Positions 4,089-23,160 of a stretch of DNA of 37,375 nucleotides are shown here, piece by piece (positions within the stretch are counted from its first letter, which is position 1; each line of letters begins with the position of its first letter). Both the position numbers and the translations under genes were made by a program. The notes beneath the pieces are model-generated. The model saw only the letters and a program-made list of their open reading frames with translations. It was not told the origin of the DNA and made no database searches. The DNA comes from a virus, in the IMG/VR virus record IMGVR_UViG_3300027659_000092, positions 1 to 37,375 of that record; one strand, 5' to 3'.

Positions 4089-4495
4089 GTATGAGTTCAA
4101 TGGGCGGATATCGTCAACCAGAAAACCCAGCACCAGCATCAGGTCCGGGTGCGCTATCACAACGTACTGATGGCGGAGCAACCGAAGGCATGAGCCAACC
4201 TGAACAAAGTTATACTGGATTTGCATATGGAAAAAACAAAGCAGTTAATGATCAGCAAGGTGGAGCACCTTTAGCAGGTTCTCCAATCCAACCACCAGTA
4301 GCATTATCTGTACCAACTGAATTTCCAAACGAACCTGACTCATATGGTGCAAATTGGGGTGAAGGTCCCGGAGTAGACACCTCTATGATTTCTATGGTTC
4401 AACCAGAAAATCCAATTAATACAATTTATCGAATGATGCAATTTGATCAGACTGGACAGTATCAGGCTATTTACAATAGAATGAATATGGAATAA
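4085..4495 (+). CDS. Pro/Gly/Gln-rich low-complexity virion-region protein
   Basis: A 136-aa protein sharing an ATGA overlap with the gene before it and a TAATG overlap with the giant gene after it. The sequence is rich in Pro, Gly, Gln, Ser and Asn (PENPAPASGPGALSQ near the start), with only the last 30 residues (TIYRMMQFDQTGQYQAIYNR) likely to form helix. It is probably mostly disordered. A second in-frame ATG six bases downstream is possible. Unknown function; position suggests a minor structural or assembly partner of the large downstream protein. Confidence 0.65.
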   Translation: MSMSSMGGYRQPENPAPASGPGALSQRTDGGATEGMSQPEQSYTGFAYGKNKAVNDQQGGAPLAGSPIQPPVALSVPTEFPNEPDSYGANWGEGPGVDTSMISMVQPENPINTIYRMMQFDQTGQYQAIYNRMNME

Positions 4496-7400
4496 TGCCA
4501 CTTAATCCACCTGATCGCACTCTTATGAATGCTAACCCAAAGATGTATGCGGCTACCCTTGCTGGCAGCCCTACTCCTGAAGAACAAAGAATTACTGATA
4601 ACCTTCAGCATCTGTTAGCAAAAGACCAATCATTTGCAAGAATGTCTGATTTAGGAAAAGCAAAAAATCAGTTTGCTAAACTTGATGTAGATATTCAAAA
4701 GGGATTAATGTTTCTTAATCCTAATGCAGAGTACCAACAAAAACCTAAAACTGTTGGTGATGTTTTTAGAGAAGCCGTTATAGAAACAGTAAAGTCACCT
4801 TTTAGAACTGTTGTTAAGGCTGCTGACCTTTACGGCAAAGCAACAAAATTACAATACAAAATGGCACGTGGTTTTTTAGATACAGGTAAAACTGACAAAC
4901 AAGCATTTACTGATATATTAAATAAACAAACATGGATAGATGGATTTGAAGGACATAACCAATGGGATCAAGTAGCCTCTAAACGGTTACAAGAAAAACA
5001 TGGTACGGCTATGTCTGTTCTTGCAAAAGGATTAATTGACGGAAAAACTCCGGGAACTATTCTTCGTGAATATGGTCCTTTAGATTCTGAAATGGCAAAT
5101 GCTATTAAAGAGTTTGCTGACCAATCTCCTAAATATAAAAATGCTTTTGCAGAATATCAGGCTTATCAAATTAACCCCGGTAATGATTTTACTAACTGGG
5201 CAAACCGTAATCATCCACCTAAAGATGGTGGCGTGTGGGGTGGCGTAATACCTTTGTTACTAGGTGCTGCTACATTTGGTGGCGGCGAAGTTACAATAAG
5301 CAAAGATAAACAAAAATGGTTAGTAGCAAATCCTAATCCACTTAGTACGGAAAGTTATGTTTCTCCTTCTGGTGGTATTAATGCTGCTTATACTATAGCC
5401 GTTGATCCAATGACATGGCTTACTGGTGGTTCATCTAAAGCAATTCTTAAAGCAGAAAAACTTGCTGAAGATTTTACAAACGCTGCTAAATCTGGTGTAT
5501 TGCCTAAACAAAGAGTTGCAGATTTATTTGCTATTCCTGAAGTTAGTGCTTACCATGAAAAATTAGCACCTGTTATTAATGAATTACGTAGAGGATTTGC
5601 TGAAAAAGATGTTGCAATTGTAGCAGCAGCCAAACAAAAAATTAAAACAAATTTTAGTCGTTATGATAATGCTCAAGTACAAGATGAATTAGTTAGAGCA
5701 AGAGTGCTTGATGATAATGAAAAACTAGTACCTGTTACTGATTTAAATACAATGCAAAAATTTTTTGAAATGGGTGAACACACTAACTACCTTATTAGTG
5801 GTCGTACAGATAATTTAATGTATTATACCGAACACCATGTTGCACTTGAAACAAGAACTCGTAAAATGACTGACGGTTTTCGTGCAGCAATGGATCAAGT
5901 AATGTTTGGTTATGAACCACGTGCGAGAGATGTTATTAAACCTATTCCACAAAAAGCACTCAAGAAGTTTGCTGACTTTGAAAAATATCTTGATGAACTA
6001 CCCGGCATTTCAATGGTTGCTAAAGATGACAAAGTTCTTAAATATCTTGGTGTAAACCAACGTAATTTTTTAAAAGCAGCAAAAGCCAGTTTTGGCATCA
6101 TGCCAAAAAATGTGCAAATCTTTACTGCAGATGAACTAGTATTAAAATCAATTGATGACTTTAGAAACTACACTCGCTTAATTGTTGGTGACAAAACACA
6201 AGCAAATCTTTTGGCTGCTCGCTATTTAATGCTTGATGCAGATGATAGATTTAATATGCTGTATAGTTTAGATAAATTATACCATGCAAAAATTGGTTTG
6301 CTTTCAGTACCAGAAGGTGTAAACAAATCTAGGGCTATCTTAGAAGCAAAGTATGCACCTGTTAAAGGCATGGGTCCTGTTACAGATATTGTTACCCCTG
6401 CGCATTTAGCAAGTCATGCAGAAATTGCCATTCCTGCTGGAATGAGCCAGATTCTTCATGCTACTAAAGGCGTTTCTATGCCTGATTTTAATGATCTTGT
6501 AAATGTGGTGCATAATACTGATGGTGTTAACAACAGACTTAGCAATTATCTTGGGTTAAATGGTTCAATCCATGAAGCAATAATGTCCGGTTGGTCATTA
6601 CTTTTGCTTTATCCTAAAATTGCAGTTAAAGGTGCAGTAGATGAAGCCACTGTTGGCTTTATGGTTCAACATCCTCGTTCTATCTATGACTTTTTTAATG
6701 GCAAAGGTCGCCAAATGTCCCGCACTGTTGCTGGATACACTGGTAGTAACAAGTCAATGGGACCAGTAAAAAGCAAAATGCTTAGTTGGGCTGGCAAAAA
6801 CCCTACTGAATACGTTTCAGCCGCAACACGCAAGCAAATGGGTGAATTAATAGAGCAAGATGTTAGTTACACATTACCTAATGGTAAATTAATATCTAGA
6901 ACTGAACTTGTTTCACCTGAAGAATACTTTGGTAAATCAGTTGAAGAACGTGTTGCAAATATTAACATTGCAAAGTATGCTGGAAAACTTACTGAAGAAG
7001 AAAAAACATATTTAGGCACACATTTAATTAATAATTCACATGCTCTTGATGGCATGGTACGTTCTACTGTAGCAGCAGCACTAGGTAATACTGTGGTTGA
7101 TGGCACTCTTGCTGCTCAAATTGTTGGTAAGAGTAAATTAACAGAAGCAGCAGAAGAGTGGGGAAGAAAAAGCCTAGGCAAGTTTATAACTGACGAGCAA
7201 AACCTTCTTCTTAATTCTAGTCGTACTCAAATACATTATGATTCTTTCTACAAATATTTTGGTAAAAATATCTGGACTGCTCCTACTGGAACAGTTGTAG
7301 ATTTTGGTGATATCTTTATTAAACATAATGCTTTACGCACAACCAAAGATGGCGAAGCCTATGTTGCTGAAGTTTTAACTAAATTAGGGTTAACTAAAAA

Positions 7401-9897
7401 TAGAGATGGTGCATGGCAAGCCTTTAGCCCCGGAGATAAAGCAACAGTTAAAAGTTTTATTGGTGAATACAGACAAGCAGTTGAGTTGCGTGACTCTGGC
7501 AAAAATGCTGGAGAAATAGCCGAAGGTATTGTCCGTAAAAGCATGGCAGAACTTTATACTATTTTTCATGGCGATCACCTTGGCTTCAATGAGAAGTTAC
7601 TTGATGGTTTAAAAAAGAGAGCACAACTTGCAGAAGAAAAAATTGCTGCAAGAAATGATTTCCGTGCATCTGATTCTTACCTTAGAGAATATGCCGGAGC
7701 ACCTGAACTTAAACAAAGTGCAAAACAATTAAAAGAACGTGCAAAGTATGAAGAAGCAGTAAGAAGTAATTCTTACCATGTGCGTAATACCCCATATGCT
7801 GATTTTGAAATACTTGCAAAAGATCATCCTATTAAGGGACAACTTAAAAGTGACTTGGACTTTCCTGAATTAGTAACAAGTGCCGAAAGTTGGTACTCTA
7901 AAATAAGAAGAGTTGCTTGGGATCAAATGGACCGGCAATTAACCGACCTCTATAGGTCTGATGCATTTATGATAAAGTTAATAGAACAACGCAAAAGAAT
8001 GGCAGCAGACGAAAAACAACACGTTGATGATTTAATGGGTCAAGGTATGAGTTATGATGCTGCTAAAGTACAGGCTGATCTTACTTTTGATAACAAAGCA
8101 ACAGAAAATGCTGCTGATGAGTTAATGAAGTATGCAGATAATCCTGATGTACGTACTCAGTTAGCATGGAACTTGCGTACTATTGGACGTTTCTATAGAG
8201 CAACAGAAGACTACACTCGCCGTCTAACTCGTTATTTAGTAGCACACCCAGATAAAGTATTCTACCGTACTTCTCAAGTTAACCAAGGTATGAATGGTTC
8301 TGGTATGGTTTATACAGATAACAATAACACTTCATATGTTTTAATTCCTAATGATGGTATTATCTGGCGATTGGCAGCACCTGTATTTGCTTCTCTTATG
8401 AATCCGGGATATGCTGTTTGGCAGGCAGGACATGGTAACTGGGATTTCTTTAAGCAACCAGCATGGAATCAAGCAACATTAAAGATTTCTTTACTAAACC
8501 CTTCTTATACCGAAGGTTCTGGTATGCCTACACTAACTGGTTCTACTATGGCAATGCCAGTACTTGCTGCAAAACAAATACTTAACTTAGCAGGCAGGGA
8601 TCTTAACAAACCTGAGTTAGTTAAACTTGGAGAGAACTTAGACAACTGGTTGCTTGGAGAACAAAGTGACAATACTTCTTGGGCAAGAGCACTCTTTCCA
8701 CCTGTATTAAATAATTTATGGAACTTGCATCAAACAGATCATAAGACTGGTATTGAAGCAACTACTCTTTATCAAGCAGCGGCTTACTTGCAGTCTAATC
8801 CAGCAACAGCATTAAAGCAAGAAGATTCTCAAAACAGAGAAAAACTTAACGATTACTATGATCGTTTACGTTTAGCAGCACACAATATAGTTGCTATAAA
8901 AATGATATTTAATACTATATCTCCTGCACCTATTGGTAGCACTGAGCCAAACATACCACCTGAATTACGCAGGGCTGGCATAGTTGGATTAAGTCAAGAG
9001 TTTAGTGACATACTTAGGGCTGTAATAGATGTTAACTCTCAGTATGGATATAACCTTGAAGACCCTATAGGCACTGCAGTCCAGATGTTTATTGGTAGCA
9101 ATCCTGACAAACTTATTTGGACAGTTGGAAAGAATACTCAGGCTGCAAAACAAGTAGTTAACTATACTAAAGAAACAAAAAACTGGGCTATAGCAAATAA
9201 CAAAATGCTTACTGACTATGCTGAAACTGGTGTTGGTTGGGTATTTGCACCTAATGTTGGCAAGTATGATCCTGCCGTAGCAAACTTTCTTGCAGCATCT
9301 GACCTTGTAACTGGTAAAGATAATCCTTTTGAAATGAATGGTGCTGGATTAAAGAGATACTTGCAAGAGATTTCTGTTGTTAAGGCTCGTCAAGATTTCT
9401 ACAATGTTGACAGAGAAGTACAGCAGTTATTAACTGATCCTAATAACCTTGAACGTAATAGAGCAGACTATCGTGCTGAACTATTAGCAAGGGCTAGGGT
9501 AGCAAAAGATGCTATTAAAATAGCAAATCCTTTATTTAAGGAAACACAGGGTACTGAAAATGTTACACCAAGAGATCAGATGTATAGAAGATATAATGAG
9601 TTTTCACAATTAGTACAGAGTAAAGAGTATGCATCTCTATTACCTGAAGGTCCAAAACGTAAGTTTATAGATCAAATACTTCCTCTTGCTAATAGAGTTA
9701 TTGATGTATTAGAAGATCCTAATATCCGTTCTCAGTTTAACGGACAGCAATTAGTAGATGATGAATTAAAGACTGGATTGAATAACCTAAAGAAATACTC
9801 TGCAGGAAATCCTATTTTAACTCAAGCCTTTGAAACAATTATTAAACCTTTGATAAACGACATTTATGTAACTCCAACTAGAGTGATGGGTAAATAA
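4495..9897 (+). CDS. Giant 1800-aa probable internal virion/ejection protein
   Basis: This is the largest gene in the window, one uninterrupted frame of 1800 codons. It is mostly soluble and helical with many Lys/Glu/Ala/Gln stretches. A few hydrophobic segments could be membrane-active: GGVIPLLLGAATFGGG (about 253-268), a SLLLLYPKIAVKGAVDEATV-type stretch (about 700-720), and WRLAAPVFASLMNPGYAVWQ (about 1290-1310). I see no lysozyme, transglycosylase, protease or kinase motif. It lies between portal and scaffold rather than among tail genes. By analogy with podovirus inner-core proteins such as T7 gp16 it could be ejected with DNA, but there is no sequence match that I recognise. It starts within a TAATG junction. 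Identity uncertain; coding status very firm. Confidence 0.72.
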   Translation: MPLNPPDRTLMNANPKMYAATLAGSPTPEEQRITDNLQHLLAKDQSFARMSDLGKAKNQFAKLDVDIQKGLMFLNPNAEYQQKPKTVGDVFREAVIETVKSPFRTVVKAADLYGKATKLQYKMARGFLDTGKTDKQAFTDILNKQTWIDGFEGHNQWDQVASKRLQEKHGTAMSVLAKGLIDGKTPGTILREYGPLDSEMANAIKEFADQSPKYKNAFAEYQAYQINPGNDFTNWANRNHPPKDGGVWGGVIPLLLGAATFGGGEVTISKDKQKWLVANPNPLSTESYVSPSGGINAAYTIAVDPMTWLTGGSSKAILKAEKLAEDFTNAAKSGVLPKQRVADLFAIPEVSAYHEKLAPVINELRRGFAEKDVAIVAAAKQKIKTNFSRYDNAQVQDELVRARVLDDNEKLVPVTDLNTMQKFFEMGEHTNYLISGRTDNLMYYTEHHVALETRTRKMTDGFRAAMDQVMFGYEPRARDVIKPIPQKALKKFADFEKYLDELPGISMVAKDDKVLKYLGVNQRNFLKAAKASFGIMPKNVQIFTADELVLKSIDDFRNYTRLIVGDKTQANLLAARYLMLDADDRFNMLYSLDKLYHAKIGLLSVPEGVNKSRAILEAKYAPVKGMGPVTDIVTPAHLASHAEIAIPAGMSQILHATKGVSMPDFNDLVNVVHNTDGVNNRLSNYLGLNGSIHEAIMSGWSLLLLYPKIAVKGAVDEATVGFMVQHPRSIYDFFNGKGRQMSRTVAGYTGSNKSMGPVKSKMLSWAGKNPTEYVSAATRKQMGELIEQDVSYTLPNGKLISRTELVSPEEYFGKSVEERVANINIAKYAGKLTEEEKTYLGTHLINNSHALDGMVRSTVAAALGNTVVDGTLAAQIVGKSKLTEAAEEWGRKSLGKFITDEQNLLLNSSRTQIHYDSFYKYFGKNIWTAPTGTVVDFGDIFIKHNALRTTKDGEAYVAEVLTKLGLTKNRDGAWQAFSPGDKATVKSFIGEYRQAVELRDSGKNAGEIAEGIVRKSMAELYTIFHGDHLGFNEKLLDGLKKRAQLAEEKIAARNDFRASDSYLREYAGAPELKQSAKQLKERAKYEEAVRSNSYHVRNTPYADFEILAKDHPIKGQLKSDLDFPELVTSAESWYSKIRRVAWDQMDRQLTDLYRSDAFMIKLIEQRKRMAADEKQHVDDLMGQGMSYDAAKVQADLTFDNKATENAADELMKYADNPDVRTQLAWNLRTIGRFYRATEDYTRRLTRYLVAHPDKVFYRTSQVNQGMNGSGMVYTDNNNTSYVLIPNDGIIWRLAAPVFASLMNPGYAVWQAGHGNWDFFKQPAWNQATLKISLLNPSYTEGSGMPTLTGSTMAMPVLAAKQILNLAGRDLNKPELVKLGENLDNWLLGEQSDNTSWARALFPPVLNNLWNLHQTDHKTGIEATTLYQAAAYLQSNPATALKQEDSQNREKLNDYYDRLRLAAHNIVAIKMIFNTISPAPIGSTEPNIPPELRRAGIVGLSQEFSDILRAVIDVNSQYGYNLEDPIGTAVQMFIGSNPDKLIWTVGKNTQAAKQVVNYTKETKNWAIANNKMLTDYAETGVGWVFAPNVGKYDPAVANFLAASDLVTGKDNPFEMNGAGLKRYLQEISVVKARQDFYNVDREVQQLLTDPNNLERNRADYRAELLARARVAKDAIKIANPLFKETQGTENVTPRDQMYRRYNEFSQLVQSKEYASLLPEGPKRKFIDQILPLANRVIDVLEDPNIRSQFNGQQLVDDELKTGLNNLKKYSAGNPILTQAFETIIKPLINDIYVTPTRVMGK

Positions 9898-17084: not shown

Positions 17085-18884
17085 ATGACAGTTAGAAAAT
17101 ATTCCTCCCGCGCACAGCAGACTACATTAGCCAGCAGCATGACTTCTAGTGATAGCACTATGACTGTAGTGTCAGGTTCCAATGTAATGGGTAATAAAAC
17201 ACCTTCAGGAACAGAAACATACACAGTTGTAATTGATCCAGATACAGCCCTTGAAGAAATTGTAGATGTAATTACTTACACATCTGGCAATGTTCTTACT
17301 ATTACTAATGGTAGAGGTCGAGATGGTTCAACTGCTGTAGCCCACTCTGCCGGTGCAATTGTTCGACATATGGTTATTGGTCGTGATTTACAAGAGGCTA
17401 ATGACCACGTTAACGGTACCCTTGCTCAACACGGAGCAACAACATCTGCAGAACTTCGTGGAGTTATATCAGATGAAACAGGAACTGGCTCTTTAGTATT
17501 TGCTACTAGCCCAACCTTAGTAACACCTATTCTTGGAACTCCTACATCTGGAACATTAACTAATACAACTGGATTACCTATTTCTACTGGTCTATCTGGT
17601 TTAGGTACAGGCGTAGCCACATTCCTTGCTACTCCATCTAGTGCTAACCTTGCTGCTGCTCTTACAGATGAAACTGGTTCAGGTGCTGTCGTACTTGGTA
17701 CTAGCCCAACTATTGCATCTCCTACCATCACTGGCACTGGTGCTATTGCTGGTACATTTACTGGTAACATTACTGGTAACGTAACTGGCAATGTGACTGG
17801 TTCTTCTGGTTCTACTACTGGTAATGCTGCTACTGCAACTCTTGCTGCTGCCGCTACAGCCCTTGCTACAGGGCGTACAATAGCCCTTACAGGAGATGTG
17901 ACAGGAACCTCTGGTTCATTTGACGGTACTGGCAATGCTAGTATTACTGCTGCTATTGCAGCCAACAGTATTGTTGATGCAGATATTAATGCCAGTGCTG
18001 CTATTGACTGGACTAAGATTGCTCCATCAGCAACAGTATCAACAACTGAACTTGGATACTTAGATGGTGTTACCTCTGCTATTCAAACTCAATTAGATGC
18101 TAAGTTGGCAACTGCTACAGCAGCAACTACCTATGCTCCACTAGCAAGTCCTGCACTAACTGGTGTGCCTACAGCACCTACTGCTGCAGCCGATACTAAT
18201 ACTACTCAGATTGCTACAACTGCTTATGTGCAGGGAGAGTTAACTCAGTTAATCAACAGTGCTCCCGGTACTCTTGACACCCTTAAAGAGTTGGCAGATG
18301 CATTAGGTAATGATACTGCCTTCTCAACAACAGTAACTAACTCTATTGCAACTAAGTTACCTCTGGCTGGTGGCACTATGTCTGGTGCTATTGCTATGGG
18401 TACTAACAAAATTACTGGTCTTGGCGACCCAACATCAGCACAAGATGCAGCAACTAAAAATTACATTGATACAGCAGTAATTGCACCGGGCAACTTAACT
18501 GGTCCTATTACATCTGTAGGTGCAGCAACCTCTGTTGCAGCCCAGACTGGCACTGGTTCTACCTTTGTGATGAACACATCACCTACCTTAGTAACTCCTG
18601 TACTTGGTGTAGCAACTGCTACATCTATAAATGGAACTACAATTCCATCATCTAAAACTTTGGTTGCTACAGATTCAACTGCCTTTGTAGTACCAAGCCA
18701 GACAAGCAACTCAGGCAAGTACCTAACCACAGATGGAACTACTTCATCTTGGGGTGTGGTAGATGCTCTACCTTCACAGACTGGCAACTCAGGCAAATAT
18801 CTAACAACCAATGGTACAGCCGCTTCTTGGGCAGCCATAGTAACCGACCCGACACCATCCATCTTTATGCTAATGGGAGCGTAA
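17085..18884 (+). CDS. Long tail fibre with repeated collagen/fibre-type segments
   Basis: A 599-aa, Thr/Ala/Ser/Gly-rich protein. Residues 1-125 look like a virion anchor (ETYTVVIDPDTALEEIVDVI, then GRGRDGSTAVAHSAG and 'IGRDLQEANDHVNGT'). Repeats follow: three copies of a 'GTSPTL.(T/S)P..G' unit (about 148, 203, 495). A known fibre motif then appears (LPLAGGTMSGAIAMGTNKIT, then 'DPTSAQDAATKNYID'). Two near-identical copies of 'PSQT.NSGKYLTT.GT..SW' lie near the C-terminus. Such units occur in many phage fibres and build trimeric shafts. It probably forms the shaft to which the small tip proteins encoded downstream attach. Confidence 0.82.
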   Translation: MTVRKYSSRAQQTTLASSMTSSDSTMTVVSGSNVMGNKTPSGTETYTVVIDPDTALEEIVDVITYTSGNVLTITNGRGRDGSTAVAHSAGAIVRHMVIGRDLQEANDHVNGTLAQHGATTSAELRGVISDETGTGSLVFATSPTLVTPILGTPTSGTLTNTTGLPISTGLSGLGTGVATFLATPSSANLAAALTDETGSGAVVLGTSPTIASPTITGTGAIAGTFTGNITGNVTGNVTGSSGSTTGNAATATLAAAATALATGRTIALTGDVTGTSGSFDGTGNASITAAIAANSIVDADINASAAIDWTKIAPSATVSTTELGYLDGVTSAIQTQLDAKLATATAATTYAPLASPALTGVPTAPTAAADTNTTQIATTAYVQGELTQLINSAPGTLDTLKELADALGNDTAFSTTVTNSIATKLPLAGGTMSGAIAMGTNKITGLGDPTSAQDAATKNYIDTAVIAPGNLTGPITSVGAATSVAAQTGTGSTFVMNTSPTLVTPVLGVATATSINGTTIPSSKTLVATDSTAFVVPSQTSNSGKYLTTDGTTSSWGVVDALPSQTGNSGKYLTTNGTAASWAAIVTDPTPSIFMLMGA

Positions 18885-18887
18885 CAT

Positions 18888-19223
18888 ATGTCAAAGAAAA
18901 TCCTCGGACAATCCAATCCGTCAGCCACTACAGTAACAACTCTTTACACAGTTGCTGCTTCTAAAGAGGCAGTCATCTCAACTATCTCTGTGGCTAACAC
19001 AACAGCAACAGCAGCAACCTTTAGGTTGATTCTGCAACCATCTGCTGATGTAAGTGCAACTATCCTTACCAAGCAGTACCTAGCATACGATATTACTGTT
19101 GGTGCTTCTGATAGCACTGTCATTACCATAGGTCTTACTATGGCAACAGGAGATGTTATTAAAGTTTATGCTTCTACAGCAACCCTTGCTTTCCAAGCCT
19201 TCGGAGATGAGGCTACAGCGTAA
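18888..19223 (+). CDS. Beta-sandwich-like tail-associated protein
   Basis: A 111-aa Thr/Ala/Ser/Val-rich protein with alternating strands. Its N-terminus (MSKKILGQSNPSATTVTTLY) and 'STISVANTTATAATFRLIL' resemble small adhesin-like or tail-associated domains I recall in aquatic phages. It starts eight bases after a GGAG site and ends with TAATG overlap into the glycine-rich gene. It may be an oligomeric linker or tip protein of the fibre. There is no catalytic motif and no close named family. Confidence 0.6.
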   Translation: MSKKILGQSNPSATTVTTLYTVAASKEAVISTISVANTTATAATFRLILQPSADVSATILTKQYLAYDITVGASDSTVITIGLTMATGDVIKVYASTATLAFQAFGDEATA

Positions 19224-20131
19224 TGGCTATCTCAAGTCTTAAGACTGGAGTTATCTCACCTAACAGTTTACTTGCTGGTAATACTGCTTACATTCCACCT
19301 TTTTTAATTGATTATTTAATTGTTGCTGGTGGAGGTGGTGCAGCAAATCCTTCGGGTGGAGCCGGTGCAGGCGGTATGAAATCTGATACAGGTTTACTAG
19401 TGACGAGAGGCACAGCAATAACTGTTACTGTTGGTGTTGGTGGAGCAGGAACAACCGGCGCGGCGGCTACAAAAGGCGGCGATTCATCAATTTCCGGCGG
19501 AGTGACAACTACAACTTGCGAAGGCGGCGGCTTAGGAACTTACAATACCGGCGCGGCAGGTAGCGGTGGTTCTGGTGCCGGGCGATTTAGTAGTTATGCC
19601 GGTTATACAAAAGGATTGGGCACATCAGGACAAGGTAACGACGGCGGCGACCCGGGCGGTGGAGATGGTGCTAGTTTTACATCAGGAGCCGGTGGCGGCG
19701 GTAAAGGTGCAGTAGGCGGCGCGGCGACGGGAACCAGTGGAAAAAATGGTGGAGCCGGTGGAGCCGGTTCGAATAATGATTATCGTACGGGTTCAAATGT
19801 TACTTATGCCGGCGGCGGTGGTGGTGCTACGCAAGATACCCTAGGTAGTCCGCTTGGAGTAGGTGGCGCGGGTGGTTCAGGCGGTGGCGGCGGGGGCTCA
19901 AATCCGGGTGGAACTATTGCCTCACCCGGAACAAAAAATGGCGTGGCAAACACAGGCGGCGGCGCGGGTGGTTCAGGAACCGGAACAGGCGGCACAGGTG
20001 GTTCAGGAATTGTTGTGTTCCGTTATTTAAGTACCTCCCCTGACGCAGTTTCTATGACAGGTGGAACAAAAACTACACAGGGAAGTTATACCGTTTATTC
20101 ATTCCTAGGTGATGGGAGCATTACTTTCTAA
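19223..20131 (+). CDS. Glycine-rich tail-tip adhesin (possible polyglycine-II domain)
   Basis: A 302-aa protein in two parts. Residues 1-25 carry the tag MAISSLKTGV..NSLLAGNTAY, shared with two other genes downstream. The rest, from 'FLIDYLIVAGGGG' onward, is a glycine-rich domain with dozens of Gly-Gly and Gly-Ala-Gly runs, ending in 'GGSGIVVFRYLS'. Such domains with hydrophobic capping strands are known in phage adhesins (the T4-superfamily gp38 adhesin of phage S16 folds as polyglycine-II sheets). The gene is unusually rich in GGC and GCG codons for this genome. It is likely a receptor-binding tip. A TAATG overlap links it to the next gene. Confidence 0.75.
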   Translation: MAISSLKTGVISPNSLLAGNTAYIPPFLIDYLIVAGGGGAANPSGGAGAGGMKSDTGLLVTRGTAITVTVGVGGAGTTGAAATKGGDSSISGGVTTTTCEGGGLGTYNTGAAGSGGSGAGRFSSYAGYTKGLGTSGQGNDGGDPGGGDGASFTSGAGGGGKGAVGGAATGTSGKNGGAGGAGSNNDYRTGSNVTYAGGGGGATQDTLGSPLGVGGAGGSGGGGGGSNPGGTIASPGTKNGVANTGGGAGGSGTGTGGTGGSGIVVFRYLSTSPDAVSMTGGTKTTQGSYTVYSFLGDGSITF

Positions 20132-20493
20132 TGGCATATTTTGCGCGTATTGAAAATGGGATAGTGCAAGCGGTTCACCTAGTCGATAACGCTTGGTTAG
20201 ATTTAAATGATGAAGAAAAAAGCGGTAGTGATTATCTAAATGCACTTTACAATATAAATGCTCAATGGGTTCAAACATCTTACAATGCTGAAACTAATGG
20301 CTTTAGATTTAATTACGCAGGTATCGGATATCACTGGGACGGTACAGGATTCTATGCACCACAGCCATATTCATCTTGGACATTAGATGAGGCGTACCAA
20401 TGGCAACCTCCAGTTGCTCGTCCAGTAGATGGCAAATTATACACTTGGTCAGAAGATATTCTAAATTGGATTGAGGTGGACCTTGGCAGTTAG
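20131..20493 (+). CDS. Tail-fibre accessory protein (MAYFARIENGIV family)
   Basis: A 120-aa protein starting MAYFARIENGIVQAVHLVDN and containing RFNYAGIGYHWDGTGFYAPQ followed by 'PYSSWTLDEAYQWQPPV'. I recognise this pattern (NYAGIGY, then PQP..SW.L, then W.PP...P) from small proteins encoded among tail-fibre genes of many cyanophages and other aquatic phages. Its exact role is not established; a fibre-tip or chaperone role is likely. It directly follows the glycine-rich tip gene with a TAATG overlap, so the two may act as a pair. Confidence 0.72.
   Translation: MAYFARIENGIVQAVHLVDNAWLDLNDEEKSGSDYLNALYNINAQWVQTSYNAETNGFRFNYAGIGYHWDGTGFYAPQPYSSWTLDEAYQWQPPVARPVDGKLYTWSEDILNWIEVDLGS
20473..20485 (+). 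promoter_or_regulatory. Ribosome site and TTG start of lectin-like gene
   Basis: GAGGTGG (20473-20479) lies three to four bases before TTG (20483-20485), inside the end of the preceding gene. Using this TTG gives the N-terminus M-AVRSLKTG, which aligns with MAISSLKTG of the gene at 19223. An upstream in-frame TTG (20471) would add four residues unlike any sibling and overlaps the ribosome site itself. Confidence 0.7.
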
Positions 20494-21292
20494 AAGTTTA
20501 AAGACTGGAACATTCAGCAGGAGTATGCTGGTTGGTAACACAGCCTATAATCCAGTTACTTCTATTGCTAACCTCAAAGCATGGTATGACGCTAGCGACA
20601 CAGCGACCATTACTGCCAGCGGTTCGGCGGTTACACAATGGAACGATAAAAGCGGCAACGGTTACAATGTAACTCAGGGAACGGCAGCACAAAGACCCGT
20701 TACTGGAACCCGTACCCAAAACGGATTAAATATGATTGACTTTCAAACCAATGATGTGCTACTTGCCTCGACCGCTTCTAACTGGACTTTTATGTCTAAT
20801 GCGACCGGTTGCACAGTATTTGTCGCAGCCTTTTACGATACCGATAATGTATATCGTTGGATTCTTAGCACCGGCAACGCTACAACCGTCAGCATAGGCG
20901 CGGAAATTGCGTGTAGTGATGCAGATGGATTGCTTGGAAATGTTACTAACGGCAACACTGGTCTTTCTACATCATACGGAAATCCAGTCAAAGCCGGTTT
21001 AACCGATAACACCGCTAAATATTTTTCTTTAATTATGGATAACTCAAACGCAACCGCCGCTAATAGATTAATCGGTAGAATTAACGGTGGTGCAATAGGA
21101 AATCCAAACACGGCAACAACAGCGGCAAGTAGTTCAAATCCTGCTCACGCTCTTTATATTGGTGGATACGACACAGCACCAGCCGACGGATTTAATGGTG
21201 GAATATGTGAAGTAATTATTTATTCCGGCGTATTGTCTGACGCTAACATTTTATTGGTCAATAATTATCTAGCAGCAAAGTGGGGAATCTAA
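20483..21292 (+). CDS. LamG/concanavalin-like lectin tail-tip protein
   Basis: A 269-aa protein from a TTG start. The first 23 residues repeat the docking-like tag (AVRSLKTGT..RSMLVGNTAY). The body shows the hallmark of bacterial and phage LamG-like domains: 'LKAWYDASDTATIT' followed by VTQWNDKSGNGYNVTQGTAA, then 'INGGAIG' and a C-terminal 'GFNGGICEVIIYSGVLSDAN' with LLVNNYLAAKWGI. Such modules bind surface glycans. It is likely a receptor-binding tip alternative to the glycine-rich one. Codon use is richer in GGC, ACC and GCG than upstream structural genes. It ends in TAATG overlap with the next gene. Confidence 0.78.
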   Translation: MAVRSLKTGTFSRSMLVGNTAYNPVTSIANLKAWYDASDTATITASGSAVTQWNDKSGNGYNVTQGTAAQRPVTGTRTQNGLNMIDFQTNDVLLASTASNWTFMSNATGCTVFVAAFYDTDNVYRWILSTGNATTVSIGAEIACSDADGLLGNVTNGNTGLSTSYGNPVKAGLTDNTAKYFSLIMDNSNATAANRLIGRINGGAIGNPNTATTAASSSNPAHALYIGGYDTAPADGFNGGICEVIIYSGVLSDANILLVNNYLAAKWGI

Positions 21293-21546
21293 TGAACTAT
21301 TACGAATGGAATACACGCGCAGATTTCGACTTATGGCATAACGTATTATGCGAGTCGCTAGGTTATCCGCTAATTGGTACAAACCAAGCGACCGGCGAGC
21401 CTGACCCAACGGCTCAAATGACTGTCGCCTATACTCAGGCAATAGAGGTAGAAGGCAAATGGATTGCAAGCGTAGAAGCAGAGTATGCAAACGGATTAGT
21501 TGAAACACAGTTGCGTTTACCAAAGCCAGATTTAGTAGGTGCTTAA
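21292..21546 (+). CDS. Small fibre-associated protein, unknown
   Basis: An 84-aa protein. ATG 21292 lies in the TAATG overlap with the lectin gene; a GTG twelve bases upstream is less likely. It begins MNYYEWNTRADFDLWHNVLC and is mixed alpha/beta with 'IASVEAEYANGLVETQLRLP' near the end. The arrangement copies the previous pair: a tagged tip gene followed by a small accessory gene. It may be a fibre-assembly helper. No named family is recognised. Confidence 0.62.
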   Translation: MNYYEWNTRADFDLWHNVLCESLGYPLIGTNQATGEPDPTAQMTVAYTQAIEVEGKWIASVEAEYANGLVETQLRLPKPDLVGA

Positions 21547-22133
21547 TGGCTATAGTCAGTATAAAAAATAAAACTAAATCTGGTAGTTTGCTGGTTGGTA
21601 ATCCTTTCTTTTTTCCAACTTCTTACGAATCTATTGCAACTGTAACTATTACATCAGCCGGTTCGGTGGCTACCTTTAGCAGTATTCCGGCAACTTTCAC
21701 TCACCTACAAGTGCGAGCAATTTTTAAAGAATCTTACAACACCGGAACAGATGTTGATAATCTTAATTTCACTTGCAACGGCGATACTACTGCTTCATAT
21801 ATTAGACACGCATTATGGGGAACTGGTGCAACCGCTTATGCAGAAGGCTATACGGGCGGAACAAGTGGAGCCATTGGAATTACACCACGAAACACAGCAG
21901 GTGATACATACGGTGCAATGGTATTAGACATTTTAGATTATACAAATACAAATAAACGAAAAGTCTTTAGGTCATTAAATGGTGTTGATAAAAATGGAAG
22001 TGGTGAAATAAGATTGTCTAGTGGTTTATGGAATAAAACAGATGCCATTACTTCATTAAGTTTTACTGGTGACTCTAGCGGTTGGCAAGTAAACACAACT
22101 TTTGCACTCTATGGAATTAAGGTGGCTTCATAA
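21546..22133 (+). CDS. Tagged tail-tip protein, paralogue 1 of 3
   Basis: A 195-aa protein with a diverged version of the docking-like tag (MAIVSIKNKTKSGSLLVGN, residues 1-19). Its body begins 'YESIATVTITSAG' and 'ATFSSIPATFTHLQV' and ends 'TTFALYGIKVAS'. That beginning and ending recur in the next two genes, so the three are tandem paralogues, and this one has the tag in addition. The body is beta-rich and Thr/Ser/Asn-rich, typical of fibre tips. TAATG overlaps couple it to both neighbours. Confidence 0.7.
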   Translation: MAIVSIKNKTKSGSLLVGNPFFFPTSYESIATVTITSAGSVATFSSIPATFTHLQVRAIFKESYNTGTDVDNLNFTCNGDTTASYIRHALWGTGATAYAEGYTGGTSGAIGITPRNTAGDTYGAMVLDILDYTNTNKRKVFRSLNGVDKNGSGEIRLSSGLWNKTDAITSLSFTGDSSGWQVNTTFALYGIKVAS

Positions 22134-22630
22134 TGCCAGCGACATACGAACCAATTGCAACTACTACTTTGACTACAAATACAGCAAACATTACATTTTC
22201 AAGCATTTCTGGTGCTTATACAGATTTAATTTTAATATGCAGTAGTAAAGTAACAACCTTCAATGGTGTAAATCTTAACATCAATGTAAATTCTGATACT
22301 GGTGCAAACTATTCTTTTACCAATGTTGGTGGTAATGGTACAACTGCAAGTTCGGCGCGTGCTACAAATACAAACTATGCAGATGCAGATGTGTTAAGCC
22401 TTATGGATACCACCAGTTTTGCTCAATACAACATTTCATTTATGAACTATGCAAATACAACTTCGCATAAAACAATTTTATCAAGGGCATCAAATGCGGG
22501 TAGAGGTGCTGAAGCGGTTATTAATACTTGGCGCAATACTGCCGCCATTACTAGCATTGTTCTAGATTGTGGTGCTGCGTTGTTTGCAACTGGTTCAACT
22601 TACACTCTTTATGGAATTAAGGCGGCATAA
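22133..22630 (+). CDS. Tail-tip paralogue 2 of 3, tagless
   Basis: A 165-aa protein beginning MPATYEPIATTTLTTNTANI, then 'TFSSISGAYTDLILI', and ending 'STYTLYGIKAA'. These match the ends of its two neighbours, while the central loops differ. It lacks the SLKTG-like tag. The sequence is beta-rich with many Asn and Thr. Likely a fibre-tip or receptor-binding head domain protein that co-assembles or competes with its paralogues. It has TAATG junctions on both sides. Confidence 0.68.
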   Translation: MPATYEPIATTTLTTNTANITFSSISGAYTDLILICSSKVTTFNGVNLNINVNSDTGANYSFTNVGGNGTTASSARATNTNYADADVLSLMDTTSFAQYNISFMNYANTTSHKTILSRASNAGRGAEAVINTWRNTAAITSIVLDCGAALFATGSTYTLYGIKAA

Positions 22631-23160
22631 TGGCAAATACTTATGTAGCAATTCAAACAGTAACAGTTGGTTCAGGCGGTTCGGCAACTATTGGCTTTAC
22701 TTCTATACCTGCAACTTACACTGATTTAGTCTTGCTTTTATCGTTGCGTACTGCTGGAACAGGAAGTGCTTATGGTTCTATTGGACAAATTACTTTCAAC
22801 AGCACAACTTCAGGTTATACTGTGCAAGATATTTATGGATTTGGCAGCGGTGGTGCTGGCACTGCTGGTTTTTCATTTGCTACAACCTATATTCCAACAG
22901 GTCGAGATGACAACGCAAATCAAACTGCCAACACATTTAGTAATCAATTAGTTTATATCCCAAATTACACAAGCAGTGATAACAAATCGGCATCTGTTGA
23001 TGCAGTAAATGAAAATAACAACACTACCAATATGACTACGGCTTTACTCGCTGCAAAATCAACTGTTACTTCAGCCATTACCGCAATCACAATCACAAGT
23101 GGAGATGGCAACTATGTTCAATACAGCAGTGCCACACTCTACGGAATCAAAAACTCATAG
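22630..23160 (+). CDS. Tail-tip paralogue 3 of 3, tagless
   Basis: A 176-aa protein beginning 'MANTYVAIQTVTVGSGGSA', then 'IGFTSIPATYTDLVLLLSL', and ending 'SSATLYGIKNS'. It shares the conserved N-terminal strand pair and the C-terminal LYGIK strand with the two genes upstream. The middle is variable (Tyr, Asn, Gly, Thr-rich). It is expected to form a jelly-roll-like tip. It starts in a TAATG junction. Confidence 0.68.
   Translation: MANTYVAIQTVTVGSGGSATIGFTSIPATYTDLVLLLSLRTAGTGSAYGSIGQITFNSTTSGYTVQDIYGFGSGGAGTAGFSFATTYIPTGRDDNANQTANTFSNQLVYIPNYTSSDNKSASVDAVNENNNTTNMTTALLAAKSTVTSAITAITITSGDGNYVQYSSATLYGIKNS

Follow-up and report, generated by a model that had tools for sequence, protein, structure and literature searches.

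How can one phage tail carry several receptor-binding proteins of unrelated fold? The question is raised by three genes of a 37,375-base viral record from IMG/VR (IMGVR_UViG_3300027659_000092), analyzed over its whole length and here called the window, in which terminase, portal and head genes are followed by a tail module. The genes begin at positions 19223, 20483 and 21546, and their products share an N-terminal peptide, the tag, in front of bodies that are mutually unrelated. They would encode the receptor-binding proteins (adhesins) of a short actinophage tail, and we regard it as probable that the tag, of about 19 residues, is an address peptide that docks interchangeable adhesins at the tip of the tail fibre. 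All features of the tail region for which coordinates are given below lie on the plus strand.

A shared N-terminal peptide on unrelated bodies

The three N-termini read MAISSLKTGVISPNSLLAGNTAYIPP (gene 19223), AVRSLKTGTFSRSMLVGNTAYNP after the initial methionine of a TTG start codon (gene 20483) and MAIVSIKNKTKSGSLLVGNPFFFP (gene 21546), and share the motif M[AS][IV]xS[LIV]K[TN][GK]xxSxS[LM]L[VA]GN. The TTG start register is backed by dozens of relatives that have ATG at the equivalent place. By translation and tag clustering, slot 1 carries variant T8, MAISSLKTGVISPNSLLAGN (19223..19282), slot 2 carries variant T10, AVRSLKTGTFSRSMLVGN behind the TTG codon (20483..20539), and slot 3 carries variant T3, MAIVSIKNKTKSGSLLVGN (21546..21602). 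Local BLOSUM62 scores among the three N-termini are 70, 41 and 53, and the highest minimum-pair score in 20,000 residue shuffles is 25; a score of 41 is attained in 1.8% of random pairs of other N-termini, a figure inflated by homologous loci. The similarity is far above chance. The earlier note had described a shared tag of about 25 residues on these genes. Its sharing is borne out by the scores and by its recurrence in other loci, and its length is to be corrected to 19–20 residues, since the conserved unit ends at ..LLVGN and is followed by a loose aromatic/proline stretch.

Tagged proteins were gathered by degenerate DNA scans of IMG/VR combined with a hidden Markov model (HMM), which yielded 165 distinct proteins from 98 loci, with the tag N-terminal in every case. 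HMM E-values show a sharp gap between tagged proteins and noise, and each of the 64 loci from the first viral scan has a genuine N-terminal tag. The scans detect pattern-matching tags only, and the true family exceeds these counts. In 257 Gb of cellular genomes the same pattern has three matches, none at a protein N-terminus; all are chance matches, out of frame or internal to an open reading frame (ORF), as is a tblastn match in Latilactobacillus phage TMW 1.46 P1, which runs antisense to an annotated early gene. None of ten near-complete genomes has a tag outside the adhesin cassette.

The tag is borne by at least six unrelated bodies. They comprise glycine-rich (about 100 proteins), propeller-like RGLFAGG (28), beta-rich LYGIKG (26) and BNR-like (2) clusters, an SBBP-like 421-residue protein and a LamG body that, among tagged proteins, occurs in the window only; fold names outside Pfam matches are descriptive and were read from repeats. 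The occurrence of the tag on unrelated tips in other phages, on which the earlier note had staked its idea, was looked for and found throughout this collection.

Slot 1 encodes a 302-amino-acid (aa) protein with a glycine-rich body (19283..20131), assigned by Pfam PF21722 (Gly_rich_2), AlphaFold2 (AF2) and Foldseek; the alignments behind the structure models were built without GenBank phage record rows. The predicted local distance difference test score (pLDDT) of the model is 90.6 overall and 61–67 at the tag residues, that is, the tag is flexible in the monomer model and the body is confident. The body is predicted to resemble a tail-tip protein of mycobacteriophage Bxb1, its best solved Foldseek match being 9d93 chain Q (Qa/Qb; E 6.6e-4). 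The Pam3 fibre 7ypx is a weaker Foldseek match (E 0.19, probability 0.44), a Pam3 profile match has E 0.007, and S16 gp38 is not among the Foldseek matches listed for the body. In slot 2, the LamG-like body of a 269-aa protein (20540..21292) has a weak match to Laminin_G_3 and one to phrog_10356, a virion structural family; its alignment with relatives in cyanophage proteins begins at about residue 19 and does not include the tag.

Slot 3 encodes a 195-aa protein whose beta-rich body (21603..22133, ending ..LYGIKVAS) is recognized by alignment with two untagged paralogues of 165 aa (22133..22630) and 176 aa (22630..23160). The tag is a removable extension, because these paralogues align to the 195-aa protein from just past it. 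The untagged pair (22133–23160) also trails the cassette in some relatives. The claim that the bodies differ completely therefore holds among the three tagged proteins of the window and fails for the next two genes, to which the third body is paralogous.

Slot variants and exchange of bodies

The cassette runs in the order 599-aa fibre, 111-aa protein, tagged 302-aa, 120-aa, tagged 269-aa, 88-aa and tagged 195-aa proteins, untagged 165- and 176-aa paralogues, and a 666-aa tail protein. Tag variants track position, not body, and their order is fixed: T8-T10-T3 occurs in 18 loci, T2-T6-T3 in seven and T7-T10-T3 in three, a propeller lineage has T5-led sets, and another lineage has T1 alone. Variant T10 is found on glycine-rich, LamG, SBBP-like, propeller and beta bodies, and T3 on glycine-rich, beta and BNR-like bodies. 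Three tagged genes are present in 14 complete cassettes, two in five, four in one and one in seven. The two-tag cassettes L014 and L103 have, by eye, an additional diverged tag-like start, and two of the ten near-complete genomes are of the T1 type with one tag, with a further one of the three-slot type having two only. As a side observation, two tagged units of L086 (4317–6035) form a single 576-aa open frame, a natural fusion or a sequencing error, and are separate genes in the near-identical L115 and L124. The earlier note had pictured one common docking peptide that gives the phage several adhesins at once or a swap system. The peptide is indeed shared, not as a single plug but as slot-specific variants in fixed order, and both of the proposed uses hold, with several tagged proteins per genome and the tag on unrelated bodies.

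Near-identical body DNA under different tags shows that bodies move between slots and that each tag keeps to its own. One propeller body has 98.3% DNA identity over 748 bp between L123 and L093, where the tags have 53% aa identity, and a second propeller body is 97.6% identical over about 750 bp between L129 and L116, where the tags have 68%. Divergence in these pairs is confined mainly to the tag and its edge and ends near LxGN. Across lineages, mean synonymous divergence (pS) is 0.45–0.72 and the nonsynonymous-to-synonymous ratio (pN/pS) within tag variants is 0.17–0.38. Because synonymous sites diverge at such low pN/pS, these comparisons indicate that the tag peptide itself is under protein-level constraint. 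Within lineage A, the tags hardly vary in DNA, and similarity is lost abruptly where tag and body meet; the DNA of ribosome-binding regions and gene ends is conserved as well. The sharp junction and the near-fixed tag DNA fit recombination through short conserved islands.

Two small genes lie between the slots. The 120-aa protein (20131..20493; phrog_7759), typical of adhesin cassettes and with homologues in 87 loci, is suspected to be an assembly factor, and the 88-aa gene (21280..21546) matches no family in PHROG or Pfam scans and has homologues in only two loci within the set. Sequence searches of the PDB with the 111-aa, LamG, beta-body and 120-aa proteins gave nothing useful, including no relative of the 120-aa protein.

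The candidate docking partner and alternative explanations

The cassette is headed by the 599-aa tail fibre (17085..18884), which belongs to PHROG tail fibre families, has an N-terminal part conserved among relatives and ends in ...TDPTPSIFMLMGA. This C-terminal motif, together with the stop codon (18843..18884), is a candidate adaptor-binding end. The next gene encodes the 111-aa protein (18888..19223), a candidate adaptor on the grounds of its AF2 model, PDB matches and gene position. The model is an eight-stranded jelly roll (pLDDT 93.7), and its PDB structure matches, themselves jelly rolls, are weak. One of them (E about 0.007) is ExsF, a spore protein whose solved structure has an N-terminal anchor peptide; the analogy to adaptor and tag is no more than suggestive. 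In Pontimonas phage phiPsal1, the annotation of a homologue cites a match to a virion structural protein of HTVC010P.

In tagged loci that include the 111-aa gene, the first tagged gene sits immediately 3′ of it. The adaptor gene comes next after 53 of 60 ORFs ending in [LIM]MGA, against 13 of 3,364 other ORFs, and it also adjoins a 98-aa mini-fibre with this ending in L016 (L016:7082). Because [LIM]MGA ends track the adaptor gene, the mini-fibre included, the fibre tip appears to be matched to the adaptor. Tag variant T1 accompanies a second, type-II adaptor. The earlier note had also named the 666-aa tail protein as a possible partner; this is not favoured, as it does not adjoin the tags and is common to relatives that lack them. 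The best candidate is the 111-aa jelly-roll protein and/or the fibre tip.

Other recurrent N-termini are found as well. In untagged relatives, 14 of 17 genes after the type-II adaptor start with MxxxVFPAxS or a near form on varied bodies (L011:6579, L030:6769, L035:6273, L038, L056:6306 and others), probably a second family of address peptides. A third recurrent N-terminus, MTKARDLANAS.., is present on further fibre-like cassette genes (L011:7537, L030:7457, L076:7919).

In the arrangement that we favour, each N-terminal peptide would be an address, with the variant belonging to the slot and the body being exchangeable. The peptide would most likely sit against the fibre-tip complex, either on the 111-aa adaptor or on the fibre C-terminus (..FMLMGA), in a chain that runs from fibre tip to adaptor to address peptide to adhesin, with up to three different adhesins mounted per virion. 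Recombination at conserved islands (the tag, the ribosome-binding region and gene ends) would swap bodies and keep the plug, such that host range could change without disturbing assembly. It is possible, though rather doubtful, that the arrangement goes further and forms an array of three non-equivalent peptides with their own sockets or one heteromeric tip, which carries three exchangeable adhesins through matched LMGA-adaptor-tag linkers; such linker sets would differ among sister lineages in a phage of 37–40 kb.

Several points weigh against docking at the fibre tip. The Foldseek TM-scores of the glycine-rich body are low, about 0.3–0.4. The adaptor-tag and fibre-adaptor co-occurrence is partly due to shared descent, and the tagged loci were sampled by their tag; the co-occurrence of fibre, adaptor and tag is taken as a lead to the partner and not as proof. 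Cassettes with tag counts of one, two and four occur, and trimerisation or binding to a different part of the tail would be equally possible roles for the tag. The three tags might jointly form a hetero-oligomer, for instance a heterotrimer with one copy per slot, in which case the tag would serve oligomerisation and not as a plug for a separate socket. In favour of this, most multi-slot cassettes have three different variants in a fixed order, and the consecutive gp35-gp36-gp37 of mycobacteriophage Mysterious, which form a baseplate heterotrimer (PMC13252515), provide a precedent. We nevertheless consider it unlikely in view of the one-, two- and four-tag cassettes and of the T1 lineage, where a single tagged gene stands behind its own adaptor type.

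It is less probable still that the tag is chiefly a short block of homology, maintained by exchange between phages as an anchor for recombination, and does little as a peptide. The near-invariant tag DNA of lineage A, the fall in identity at the tag-body junction and the conservation of ribosome-binding and gene-end DNA speak for it, but the synonymous divergence and low pN/pS across lineages disfavour it as the sole cause, and slot variants remain distinct though bodies cross slots. Translational coupling as the cause of the tag was dropped, since the untagged neighbours at 22133 and 22630 likewise start at TAATG junctions. It is very improbable that the tag acts as a common signal for targeting or processing, or that it completes each body's fold as a first strand or cap: the AF2 model has two short bridges within the tag, and the segment before the Pam3 glycine-rich domain is matched weakly in a profile search, but the tag is common to six unrelated folds, is missing from the untagged paralogues of the slot-3 body and has low pLDDT beside a confident body. 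Inspection of its sequence finds no hydrophobic stretch of the kind seen in signal peptides, and a signal peptide was dropped.

Known systems, host and implications

Phages K1-5, K1E and SP6 and Klebsiella phages of the KP32, KP34, Menlow and PhiK64-1 groups likewise have a short N-terminal peptide on unrelated receptor-binding proteins (RBPs); it is thought to fix the RBP to an adaptor or to a first RBP, with several RBPs per virion (PMC6872550). In K1-5, two unrelated enzymes are held on the adaptor via conserved N-terminal peptides of 7 and 11 residues, and the conserved RBP peptides differ among Klebsiella phage groups (PMC6872550). The window has in common with the K1-5/SP6/KP32 kind a short peptide on unrelated proteins, the bodies of which would bind receptors. 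Its tags differ in that they are 19–20 residues long, have another sequence and form slot-specific variants on usually three genes. The socket of the K1-5 kind is a T4 gp10-like domain, whereas the candidate socket here is the jelly-roll protein. No T4 gp9/10 Pfam match was found in fibre or adaptor, a diverged domain in the fibre being possible, and gp10 is not among the 50 best PDB matches listed for the adaptor model. By analogy, we propose that the cassette works like docking of the K1-5 kind; membership itself is not claimed because a gp10-like socket was not found in fibre or adaptor.

Position is also set by conserved, protein-specific N-terminal parts in TSP1-4, the tailspikes of the Ackermannviridae CBA120 and S117, while C-terminal receptor domains are swapped (PMC11414711). 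Those parts are large XD/TD domains on tailspikes, in contrast to the short peptide on glycine-rich, LamG and propeller bodies seen here. The gp38 adhesin of T-even phages (T2, PP01, S16) and gp24 of Pam3 place a glycine-rich receptor-binding domain at the fibre end, as would be the case in the window, where Gly_rich_2 and the distant Bxb1 match provide the likeness to solved phage-tip proteins. The N-terminal part of gp38 attaches the adhesin and that of gp24 docks to the baseplate; these are helical or larger domains of a single adhesin type, and no tag is shared with unrelated bodies. An attachment domain of this type was not found in the 302-aa protein, which has the flexible tag of about 20 residues in its AF2 model instead. 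The docking principle is already known; what appears to be new is the sequence of the tag, the way it addresses slots and its occurrence in actinophages.

A freshwater actinobacterium is the probable host, because the 666-aa protein is close (about 51% identity) to that of isolates LanE43-AprE7 and F5, which infect Ca. Planktophila LanE-43 (PMC10202952); identity to Streptomyces Beephvirinae phages is about 35–38%. Tail gene order and tags of these cultured Nanopelagicales phages match those of the window, and its three-slot layout recurs in E7 and F5. Between the two (L001 and L180, same host strain), the slot-1 and slot-2 adhesin genes are 98.4% and 99.8% identical in DNA. The equivalent 5-kb region of E7 and F5 has been described as a hypervariable island with a possible role in host recognition, containing part of a fibre, two collagen-like and three 'DUF2541' proteins; the main text of that paper has nothing on a shared N-terminal tag, on slots or on an adaptor (PMC10202952). 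Elsewhere in the window, the interval from the portal gene to the major head protein gene contains the gene of an 1800-aa protein (4495–9897) that has no PHROG family and may be a virion component that is ejected.

Ca. Nanopelagicales, the likely hosts, belong to the most abundant bacteria of fresh water, and to our knowledge it is not known how their phages recognize them. The tag provides a sequence handle for candidate receptor-binding genes of any fold, including folds that databases do not recognize. It reveals a possible reshuffling of host range, with bodies swapped behind a constant plug, and predicts an interface between adaptor and peptide. If this reading is correct, a docking peptide of 19 residues would be a compact module for fixing proteins on a phage tail.

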